Shown: positions 40,932 through 44,932 of the stretch, piece by piece
How the letters are laid out: each line of letters starts with the position of its first letter
Position numbering within the stretch: the first letter of the stretch is position 1
DNA from: Aldrovandia affinis
Lineage: Eukaryota > Chordata > Actinopteri > Notacanthiformes > Halosauridae
NCBI GenBank assembly: GCA_029706075.1
Contig: JAINUG010000179.1
Location: forward strand, 248,001-312,000
Direction of reading: 5' to 3'
DNA length: 64,000 bases
Made by a program: the position numbers and the translations under genes
Notes under the pieces: model-generated
What the model was told of the DNA's origin: nothing
Databases searched by the model: none
What the model saw: the letters and a program-made list of their open reading frames with translations, nothing else

Positions 40932-43900
40932 TTAGTCGCTGTCTGTGTCTACTGCCAAAGCCCCTGTGTGCTCCTGTCCAGGATTGGCTGGAGTGCTCTG
41001 GATCCCTGCCTCCAGATCCCTGGCCTTGGCTCGTAGCATGGCGATGCTGCAAGCCCGAAGCCCATCGGAATCAGACCCCACTCGCATCTCCTGTTCCTCA
41101 GGCCCTCTCGCCACACTCTGGGCGGGCTTGACCGATGTGCCGGGTGGGAATGGGAGGCCATGGCTTCCTGTCTCCTGCTTCCTCTCCCTGCGGTGGAGAT
41201 AAGGGCTCTGTGGGTCCAGCCCGCTCTGGTCGGGCTGGTCTGAGGTTTCCTCAGCATCCCTGTCGGCCAGCTTCTCACCGACGTGGCCCTGCACCTTCAT
41301 CTGCCTCCTCATCTTAGCTCTGCGGTTCTGAAACCACACCTTGAGAAAACAACAAGGAGGAGCAGGAGAGGGTAAGGGAGGAGAGTGGAAATGCTCTGAA
41401 CAGTGAAAATATTACTCATAGAAAGAGGGGTCAGTTGACAGGTCCAATATCTGACTTGTATTGTACAGACATGTATTATGTAAACAAATATGTCTGTACA
41501 ACATATTATTGTAAATAATTTAACCTTTTGGACACCAGTATGATTCCTGTAGATTACTTACCGATTTAAGAGAAAAGTTCATTTTCACCAATATTCAGAA
41601 CAAAATTCTTCTTTCATATGATTATATGATTTTGTTAACATTTTGTCAAATATTTTCAGGGATCTGCAGGAGTATTTTCAAATTTTACCAGGATCCAAGG
41701 AGGTAAAGCATTTCAAATAAATATTTTAGCCAGGTCTGGTACAATTGCCAAATACCATTTTATTTTCACATTTTTAAATTTCGCACTTTATTGCCTTGGT
41801 ATGAGCATGGAATAAATGTAATATTTTTCTAATAGCCCATTATGTGCTTGTTCTATGTGTGGGTATATTTTCAGCAGAAAGGGAAAATATAATATAATTT
41901 TTAAAGATGATTATCAGTAGAAGTAGAAGCGGCAGAGGAATGACTTTTACATCTTTAATATTTTCATGATTGTTTGGTGTAGTTAATGAGCATATCAATT
42001 TAATGAGGTTTGAAGCTGATTCCTTTTTATGTTACTTTTAACTTGACAGTTTTGCCTTTTTGAACTTCACACAAAATTACTTTCGCCATAATGGCTTTTC
42101 ATTATTTCCATATAATCTGAATGATTTAATATGACCAGATCTCTGTGTTATAATTAGTAATATAACTGCAGGTAATGTACAAAGGTAATGGTAACGCATT
42201 AGACACAATTAAGAAAGAAGGAATGAGCCAGTGATGGTAAAATTGTGAATCATGACATGAAGACGATCAGGACCATTATCAGTTGATATTCTCTGGTTGC
42301 ATTGTAGCTCACTAGCCACCAATGGTCCTTATAGCTCGCTGAGGTTAAATCTTCATTTTGCAAAATTCACTTTAATAATTCATTTCAGCTAGTATCGGAA
42401 TAGACACAGTGCATTTGGCAGACTGTTCGTCAGGTGCAAGATACACAGAGGGCAGCTGCATCAGGGTCGGGTGGAGTGAAAATGATAACTCTGAGGAGGT
42501 TGAAGAAGAGCCGAAGAGCGACTTTCCTTTCCAGTTTGTTTGGGGCAGGCCAGGTCTTTATTCCTCCTTCATTGCATTCAAGGTGTGTGTTTATCAGAAC
42601 TACTTCATATGCATTCTTTCATTGCTTTAAGACAAACCATTTTGTGCAAATTACTTCAGAAAATAACATGTGATTTGATGATTGTTCAGGTTATTTATCT
42701 TTAGTGCACAAGCATCTTATATCAAAGCTGTGGCCAATTACATATGCAACATACAGGTGCCCTGATCACACAATCAATTGAACCAATTGGCAAAACATCT
42801 ATTCTGCTTGTCAATCATGGAGGTACAATGCTGTAAATGATCAATTCACATTCACTTTATAATGACTCTTGAACCCTGTCTTTAAATAAGTTGTCCACAC
42901 TGTGCACAACATGAATTGTCTTAAAGCCTTCATGAAACATGTATAACACCTTCATCAACATGTCGTAACATATTAGTGACATAGTACATTAAATGAATTG
43001 TCATAAAGCCTTTATAAAGCATCCATAAAGCCTTTGTTGACATATCATAACATCTTTATAGTTCTCACCAAAATGATTGTACAACTGCTTATGAATGGTC
43101 TTGATGGAATTATACATGTTTCATAGAGGCTTTAGGAAAATATACTATATAAAGTGTGACCAATAAATAAATATAATGTTTAAAGGTTTTCTATGAATAT
43201 ATCAATCATGAACCCTTGAACAATAAACAATATCAGTAAATTAGCCAATGTACCCTTTCAACAGAACCTCCAGACCCATACCAACCACAAAATACCAATG
43301 CATATACCATCACAAGAAGAAATGCTCATTTAAATGTTCAATTATGAATTACAATTCCTGAACAAATCCTACATACTGAATCATGATTAGCGGTTTAGAA
43401 TAGATTTTTTTTGTTGTTAAGAGGACCGGATGCAATAATAAGATGAGGACGAACTCAAGAATGCCCTGGGATTGTGAGCCAGACCATGTATTCACAGGTG
43501 TCAAATGTTTGTGCAAACAGTCTAATCTGTCTGCAATGTTTACTCTTGCTGGTTGCAAACATTTAGTTATTGATCATGGTCTAAATTGGAGTTACCTATG
43601 GGTTTCTGTTCATTTGTTCAAACAAATTACTCTGTGTTGACTTTAATGTTGATGTAGGCCTATGCTGCAGAATATACAGTACTACAGTACAATGCTAAAT
43701 TGCATTCTACTCTGTCATTTCTCTGTAAAGTCACTATAGATGAAGGTGTCTGCTAAATAAAAAATATTGTTTTTGTTGATGTTAATAATACTAATACTAA
43801 TACTAATACTACTACTACTACTACTACTACTACTAATAATACTAATACTACTACTACTACTACTACTACTACTACTAATAATAATAATAATAATAATAAT

Positions 43901-44932
43901 AATAATAATAATAATAATACAGTGTCACCCGTACCTGGACTCGGGCCTCAATGAGATCCAACCGAATGGCGAGAGCCTCTCTGATGAAGATGTCGGGATA
44001 GTGTGTGCTCTCAAACGCCTTCTCCAGCTCTTCCAGCTGCCAGCTACTGTAGTTGGCCCGTGCCCGCCTCTGTTTGACCGGCCGCACTTCATCTGAAAAT
44101 GACCGCAGCACCGCATCACCACCGGTAAGTAGGAAGTCAGCTGTGTAGTTAAATCTGACATGAGGTGTTCCATTACTGATAATGATGGTTACAGTGCATT
44201 GCCTCTTTTAAGTAAATGAATGAAATAAAAACAAACAGATTAAATACAAAACATAAGCGGTATATTTATTCCATATCATGTTTCCATTATAATATGAGGT
44301 CTGACATTGGCTTATAAAATGTGATGCATATATGGTAATGTCTCCAAAAATAATCTACCTAATGTTTTTTCTGTAAAAACGCCTCTTTGTTTGAGAGCCT
44401 CCAAACGCCGCACACACACACACACACACACACACACACACACACACACACACACACACACACACACACACACACACACACACACACACACACACACACA
44501 CACACATACACACACACACACACACACACACACACACACATACAGACACAAACAAACACAGATCCAAGGTCCTTTTGTCTTGTACAGCAATCAACCATAA
44601 AATGCATAAAAGCCGGCCAAACAACCAACTCAGTCCACCTGACCTGAATTTGTGACAATAATGATGATATAGCAGAGTGGCCAGGACTTACCTTTGCTCT
44701 CTGTAATGTTGGCCAGGCTGGATGCGTGCGTGGGCAGGAGCAGAGCCTGCTTGCTGGGCTCAGGTTGCAGGTAGCCTCGCAGGATTTCGTAGGTGAACAG
44801 GGGTCCTGGGATCAGGAGGCTGGAGAGGTGCGGGGAACCCAGCCTGCCAGGGAAGGCTGGAAAAAGGTGCAACGGAGAGGGGTGGAAGACTGCGGGTGAG
44901 AGAGCCGAAACAAGCTGGCCCGGGCTGAACAT
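40932..44932 (-). CDS. Paired-class (PRD-like, Q50) homeobox protein with OAR motif, family unassigned
   Basis: Predicted nuclear transcription factor. Exons (minus, 5' to 3'): 44932-44692, 44092-43935, 41339-40932; phases fit and give 268 residues. The homeodomain spans about residues 88-147, with [10 protein letters not shown] in helix 1, the THYPD turn, [10 protein letters not shown] and then [13 protein letters not shown]. The intron between homeodomain positions 46 and 47 is typical of PRD-class genes. Position 50 is Gln, and position 56 is Met where Trp, Phe or Cys is usual. The C-terminal third contains [16 protein letters not shown] (about 231-246), an OAR motif as in ARX/ALX/PRRX-type proteins. 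No paired domain is present. The start is the first ATG in exon 1 ([13 protein letters not shown]); the frame is open further upstream but offers no ATG. It lies between INTS1 and MICALL2 on the same strand. UNCX is a neighbour of this locus in mammals and shares some helix-1 residues, but the OAR and altered recognition helix argue against calling it UNCX. Confidence 0.86.
42860..43165. mobile_element. Candidate MITE fragment
   Basis: The stretch repeats variants of 'cataaagcctttataaagcat' and ends in 'tataaagtgtgacc', a layout common in fish non-autonomous DNA transposons. Boundaries and superfamily were not resolved. Confidence 0.4.
43786..43919. repeat. Trinucleotide microsatellite (ACT)n/(AAT)n next to the homeobox exon
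   Basis: About 130 bases of interspersed ACT/TAC and then AAT triplets. The end at 43919 is about 15 bases from the 5' splice site of the homeobox exon (donor GTACGG, 43934-43929), so the repeat forms the beginning of intron 2. Confidence 0.97.
44411..44540. repeat. (CA)n dinucleotide microsatellite in homeobox intron 1
   Basis: About 130 bases of nearly pure CA with one or two TA interruptions, inside the 0.6-kb first intron (44691-44093). Apparent open frames across it are repeat artefacts. Confidence 0.98.

Follow-up and report, generated by a model that had tools for sequence, protein, structure and literature searches.

The 64,000-nucleotide stretch of the Aldrovandia affinis genome analysed here (the window; C879:248001-312000 of a 1.22-Gb genome) carries at positions 40932-44932, on the minus strand, a real, conserved and intact paired-like homeobox gene, referred to below as the candidate. 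It is probably a functional gene of the PRD class (PAXL type) and the nearest paralogue that UNCX has here, with an origin that precedes the duplication of the block in which it lies and with both duplicates kept. Its 268 codons are distributed over three exons with no internal stops. In the spliced reading of the window, exon 1 (44932-44692, minus strand) supplies the start codon and the N-terminal region, 80 codons and one base in all; exon 2 (44092-43935, minus strand) encodes, by the same reading and by Pfam, the homeodomain through residue 46; and exon 3 (41339-40932, minus strand) encodes the homeodomain from residue 47 (VWFQNRR, which includes Q50), the C-terminal region with an OAR motif, and the stop codon. 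Both introns are GT/AG, in phases 1 and 0, and an in-frame stop lies 26 codons 5' of the ATG. The homeodomain matches Pfam PF00046 (74.6 bits, E 5.4e-21), and the second intron falls between residues 46 and 47, exon 2 ending on Q46 and exon 3 beginning on V47. Besides PF00046, only OAR matched the candidate protein in the Pfam scan (E up to 10). This match, over profile positions 2-15 (41019-41060, minus strand; C879:289019-289060), is weak, scoring 15.3 bits in the Pfam scan against a cut-off of 20.1, and 19.4 bits, just under the cut-off, in a genome-wide scan. A paired-like homeodomain without a paired box is what defines the PAXL type of the PRD class, and the best PDB matches of the candidate, among the 60 listed of 68, are the paired-like proteins Aristaless and ALX4; no UNCX chain is among those 60. 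An earlier sequence-only reading had described a complete three-exon gene with Q50, a 46/47 intron and a C-terminal OAR, and the splice sites, the 268-codon frame, the PF00046 match and the OAR-like match bear that description out.

A search of the genome with the candidate protein recovered all three exons again on a second contig, C580, where an intact model occupies C580:1629432-1631331 (read from 1631331 to 1629432). The exon lengths of this paralogue are 241/158/432, as compared to 241/158/408 in the window copy, and its splice sites are canonical. Exon 1 (C580:1631091-1631331) has the same length of 241 as its window counterpart and encodes the same first 16 residues; exon 2 (C580:1630271-1630428), again of the same length at 158, encodes 43 identical residues out of 45 in the homeodomain. 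The paralogue has its OAR at the same place in the protein, and there the match clears the cut-off, at 26.9 bits in the Pfam scan and 30.4 bits (E 8e-4) genome-wide. That genome-wide scan, run at a permissive E of up to 10, returned 26 OAR matches, of which 25 exceeded the cut-off and the window copy alone fell slightly short of it; at this setting 4 of 14 control genomes also gave matches, none above the cut-off. Over 265 aligned codons, nonsynonymous divergence (dN) between the two copies is 0.244 and synonymous divergence (dS) 1.083. The homeodomain has a dN of 0.029 and a dS of 0.979 (dN/dS about 0.03), the N-terminal 87 residues a dN of 0.214 and a dS of 0.991 (dN/dS about 0.22), and the C-terminal linker evolves fast (dN 0.522, dS 1.172). 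The pair is under purifying selection, and both copies look like maintained proteins in which the homeodomain is the most constrained part.

The two copies lie in corresponding surroundings. Similarity between the window and C580 is colinear across MICALL2-type exons, the candidate gene and INTS1 exons, and UNCX is found on both contigs, 198 kb from the candidate on the window contig and 176 kb from it on C580. A single duplication of the entire UNCX-MICALL2-candidate-INTS1 block would explain this most simply, and because UNCX and the candidate are linked on both contigs, the candidate appears older than that duplication. The duplication is probably the teleost genome duplication; in passages of Nittoli et al. 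2019 (PMC6543554), the zebrafish pairs uncx/uncx4.1 and micall2a/micall2b are attributed to that event. The exon-2 dS is 0.75 for the candidate pair and 0.84 for the UNCX pair, values compatible with a common date without proving one; the figures for nine further pairs were 0.09 (RAX), 0.33, 0.42, 0.57, 0.58, 0.66, 0.75, 1.08 and a saturated value (SHOX).

Paired-class homeodomains were gathered from the same genome for identities and trees, under their customary family names (ALX, RAX, SHOX and others); the UNCX label is supported in addition by the position beside MICALL2. In exon 2 the window candidate is identical to the two UNCX genes at 33/45 and 32/45 residues and the paralogue at 35/45 and 34/45; of the other full rows, ARX, ALX4 and PAX3/7 come closest, at 29-30/45. 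Of 38 rows, those of the candidates and UNCX are the only ones with W11 and A33. Across 120 between-family comparisons, for which the ARX rows were too short, candidate-UNCX identity reaches 0.78 (35/45) and ties for the top with DMBX/DMBX-like at 0.78; it falls short of every within-family value observed, of which 39/45 (ALX) is the lowest, and each duplicate pair, candidate or UNCX, differs at only 2/45 exon-2 residues since the block duplication. The candidates and UNCX form a clade in all six trees that hold UNCX, the candidates standing as sister to UNCX and not nested within it. The first tree (LG+G4, 39 rows) supports this clade with 82.7 in the Shimodaira-Hasegawa-like approximate likelihood ratio test (SH-aLRT) and 95 in the ultrafast bootstrap (UFBoot); the other five give UFBoot/SH-aLRT values of 91/91, 97/95, 92/87, 95/76 and 95/85. 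One PAX6 exon row was omitted from all trees. The first tree and the 91/91 tree used 39 rows, 30 of them different, the 97/95 tree used exon 2 only with three ARX rows dropped (36 rows), the 92/87 tree dropped eight MIX, ISX, DMBX-like, ARX and VSX rows (31 rows), and the 95/76 and 95/85 trees omitted the partial ARX row L063 (38 rows). None of Shox, Vsx, Otp, Phox2, Pax3/7, Rax, Prrx or Alx grouped with the candidates in the UNCX-holding trees, and the linkage to UNCX lends the affinity independent support. The sequence-only reading had found that the gene matches no family: it does stand outside every named family tested, but it can be placed, as its homeodomain groups with UNCX, which lies less than 200 kb away in both blocks. 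The homeodomain phylogeny which that reading proposed, run here on the families of this genome, thus yields a sister of UNCX, with several other partners kept by the approximately unbiased (AU) test.

These AU results are among several points that weigh against an UNCX affinity of this kind. As partners of the candidate over 60 columns, ALX (0.039) and PRRX (0.003) were rejected, and SHOX (0.337), OTP (0.284), VSX (0.189), RAX (0.184), ARX (0.108, or 0.051 with fuller ARX), PAX3/7 (0.082) and PHOX2 (0.057) were kept; with exon 2 only, ARX (0.024) and RAX (0.039) were rejected, and SHOX (0.334), PAX3/7 (0.169), PRRX (0.105), VSX (0.096), ALX (0.069), PHOX2 (0.066) and OTP (0.057) were kept. The homeodomain offers 60 sites, and only the 97/95 and 95/85 values, both from exon 2 only, reach the star of the tree tool. 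When the UNCX rows are removed (37 rows), the nearest homeodomain by path is ALX3, and the candidates have no starred partner. The tree set holds no DRGX, GSC, HESX, PROP, SEBOX, HBN or REPO homeodomains. The dS comparison is loose, the ten pairs other than the candidate pair ranging from 0.09 to saturation and not all being sure genome-duplication pairs. Lastly, nothing UNCX-like was seen by eye in the candidate beyond the homeodomain, and the motif sets tested are opposite.

This opposition is seen in the effector motifs. Both genomic UNCX copies have a homeodomain flanked by the eh1-type motifs FSIDGLL and FSVESLL, and a GPGRP tail (for this comparison 189 residues of exon 3 were covered in the C580 UNCX); neither copy is among the 26 genome-wide OAR matches. 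Neither candidate contains a match to the single eh1-type pattern used, and the GPGRP tail is also absent from both. The use of a GPGRP tail without OAR as a mark of UNCX derives from the two genomic copies of this fish. In passages of PMC1310626, worm and fly UNC-4 are described as binding Groucho through a C-terminal eh1, and mouse Uncx4.1 and a corrected human model are given eh1 motifs both N- and C-terminal to the homeodomain. The candidate therefore belongs with Uncx by its homeodomain, because it groups with UNCX, and does not by its effector motifs, because eh1 is unmatched. That the candidate is UNCX itself is excluded, the UNCX copies having eh1 and no OAR whereas the candidates have OAR and no eh1 match.

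The candidate is best read as an old sister of UNCX, linked to it and retained in fish, whose product would be a transcription factor that does not act via Groucho. A narrower version of this explanation, differing from it in age, is that UNCX was duplicated in tandem in the vertebrate era and that the candidate is the copy, which changed rapidly at first and hardly at all thereafter, with an OAR inherited from an ancestral UNCX that later lost the motif. This is quite possible, though somewhat short of probable. It would account for the linkage to UNCX in both blocks, the grouping with UNCX and the shared 46/47 intron, and local Uncx duplications are noted for Drosophila, Capitella, Saccoglossus and Ciona in passages of PMC6543554. 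It has to reconcile a candidate-UNCX distance of between-family size with 2/45 changes per pair since the block duplication, and an eh1-less candidate with worm and fly Unc-4 and mouse Uncx4.1, all reported with a C-terminal eh1 in passages of PMC1310626. A wider and more speculative version of the preferred sister-gene reading, possible though less likely than not, would have an ancient paired-like family that split as the sister of Uncx before vertebrates, possibly before bilaterians, and kept the OAR that Uncx lost; it would have survived beside MICALL2 in ray-finned fish, been duplicated there along with its enhancers, and been lost on the way to mammals.

The candidate could also be a divergent member of another OAR family (ARX, ALX, VSX, SHOX, OTP or similar) that came to lie near UNCX by chance or through an ancient cluster, with W11 and A33 convergent. 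It does share its OAR with those families, and no OAR was matched in either genomic UNCX copy; the best PDB sequence matches, among the 60 listed of 68, are to Aristaless and ALX4, and several such placements survive the AU tests. Against this, all six UNCX-holding trees join the candidate to UNCX, the extra homeodomain intron of ARX-type genes is absent from it, and ALX and PRRX were rejected over 60 columns and ARX and RAX in exon 2, so that we regard membership of such a family as unlikely. It is highly improbable that the gene is a decaying or non-functional remnant with no biological role: the OAR of the window copy falls under the Pfam cut-off and the C-terminal linker is fast (dN 0.522), but frames and splice sites are intact in both copies, and dN/dS is about 0.03 in the homeodomain and about 0.22 in the N-terminal region.

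The candidate is predicted to encode a nuclear transcription factor, and its Q50 homeodomain would be expected to bind TAAT-type sites in an UNCX-like manner. Other Q50 paired-like proteins bind TAATNNNATTA palindromes as cooperative dimers, and the candidate protein probably binds TAATNNNATTA in the same way. Because eh1 is missing, it would not recruit Groucho/TLE and would not be a repressor of the UNCX type. The OAR tempers activity or dimerisation in ARX, PRRX and PITX proteins, and given these roles in other families it may do so here. The conserved elements at 46.3, 51.0-51.3 and 52.7 kb of the window would drive expression of the candidate.

These elements lie between the candidate gene and INTS1 and were found by comparison of the window with C580, which covered 39 of 54 block matches, from regions where no more than two matches overlap. 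The nearest (46277-46369), which precedes the start codon by about 1.35 kb, is 76% identical over 93 bases to C580:1633772-1633864 (E 4e-12). Three short blocks follow, at 50954-51014 (77%, E 1.6e-4), 51076-51154 (81%, E 4e-12) and 51228-51281 (83%, E 2.5e-8), each matching part of C580:1635290-1635717. The longest element, a candidate enhancer 7.7 kb upstream (52659-52922), is 79% identical over 264 bases to C580:1637205-1637468 and has matches at two places in the genome only, namely these two duplicates. It has no frame open throughout and no Rfam match (E up to 1). A 60-codon frame within it (52722-52901, plus strand) is open in both copies, with 20/60 residues changed; its changes by codon position are 9/13/16, as compared to 4/1/21 in homeobox exon 2, and because they are spread over the codon positions there is little sign of coding. 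The upstream blocks are apparently non-coding, 52722-52901 probably included. Conserved DNA of this kind near a homeobox gene is most often a sign of developmental enhancers, and the blocks are candidate enhancers of the homeobox gene; they could instead belong to INTS1. A scan made without a control found a few matches to TAAT palindromes in each block near the gene.

Among the nine open reading frames (ORFs) of the window considered in the Pfam scan, seven lie above the family cut-off (two CH, one bMERB, three INT1_R3 and one INTS1_R4), one has an INTS1_R4 match below the cut-off, and one (24241-24429) has no match to any Pfam family. The CH and bMERB exons occupy 20.2-33 kb on the minus strand, and the Integrator subunit 1 R3 and R4 exons 56.3-61.7 kb, also on the minus strand. 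Two INTS1 ORFs match the solved structure of Integrator subunit 1 (E 1.7e-17 and 1.4e-11). The matches listed for CH include alpha-actinins, MICALs and further CH-domain proteins, and none is named MICALL2; this name is given because of the pairing of CH and bMERB domains and the published UNCX-MICALL2 linkage. The placement of the gene between MICALL2 and INTS1 in the sequence-only reading accordingly agrees with the flanking CH/bMERB and INTS1 domains, the MICALL2 name itself being inferred.

Repeats are also present in the window. The UnaL2 LINE (long interspersed nuclear element) 3' element has six matches (18916-18969, 27097-27150, 48546-48599, 50050-50102, 53556-53609 and 56651-56704), of a family named from eel. 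Two of these adjoin tRNA-like matches (53627-53699 and 48462-48519), as in tRNA-derived short interspersed nuclear elements with a LINE tail; ARAGORN found no tRNA genes in the window. Judged from the letters of the ORFs, the frames at 48612-48845 (minus strand) and 49128-49838 (plus strand) resemble LINE reverse transcriptase fragments, and the frame at 34347-34628 (plus strand) resembles a Tc1/mariner transposase fragment.

Elsewhere in the genome, locus L066 (C391:2311700-2314260) adds an ARX-like gene to the two ARX-type genes on C746 and C1558; its homeodomain is a distinct variant, and it has the ARX-type extra intron and an OAR. Locus L050 (C1:17744250-17744600) is a divergent DMBX-like homeodomain exon, 78% identical to two DMBX genes. 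Among the 150 homeodomain matches scored of 549, many are clustered on seven contigs, with two on an eighth, which we read as seven to eight teleost Hox clusters. Pattern searches for relatives of the candidate in a prokaryote contig collection (123 matches) and a virus contig collection (47 matches) gave none that was confirmed, as expected there.

Among the titles and abstract openings listed, neither a homeobox gene between MICALL2 and INTS1 nor a second Uncx-like vertebrate gene is described, subscription papers and gene databases lying outside the scope of the search; such a gene also goes unmentioned in passages of Nittoli et al. (PMC6543554) and Ryan et al. (PMC1779571). In a human PRD-class list dated 2007, as far as its consulted parts extend, UNCX is the sole entry at 7p22.3 and the only human Uncx member (PMC2211742). 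Loss from mammals, one of the options raised by the sequence-only reading, fits this one published list, as it has UNCX alone at 7p22.3. Passages of Nittoli et al. 2019 (PMC6543554), in which the Uncx-MICALL2 interval was examined, describe a single Uncx at the bilaterian root and two teleost duplicates. A second, OAR-bearing gene just past MICALL2 would alter that single-Uncx account, and processes credited to fish uncx and uncx4.1 could involve this gene or be compensated by it. UNCX and the candidate would be sister transcription factors with different effector motifs, eh1 in the former and OAR in the latter, and homeobox gene loss would have in the candidate a concrete putative example whose position is mapped and for which enhancers are proposed.

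Compared with known systems, the candidate is most like UNCX (Uncx4.1, unc-4; teleost uncx and uncx4.1), with which it shares W11, A33, Q50, the 46/47 intron and the same block, and which has the closest homeodomain to the candidates in this genome (32-35/45 in exon 2); it differs in that this identity amounts to only 71-78%, in the between-family range. ARX and ALX share with it a Q50 paired-like homeodomain and an OAR, at 28-30/45 in exon 2, but are without W11 or A33 and were never joined to the candidates in UNCX-holding trees; the ARX-type genes of this genome have in addition a homeodomain intron after the R of VFTR/VFSR, which the candidate lacks. The Drosophila pair OdsH/unc-4 offers a parallel in that a second Uncx-type gene is linked to the first, according to passages of PMC1310626 and PMC6543554. 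In passages of the former, OdsH has kept its C-terminal eh1, unlike the candidates, in which no such match was found.

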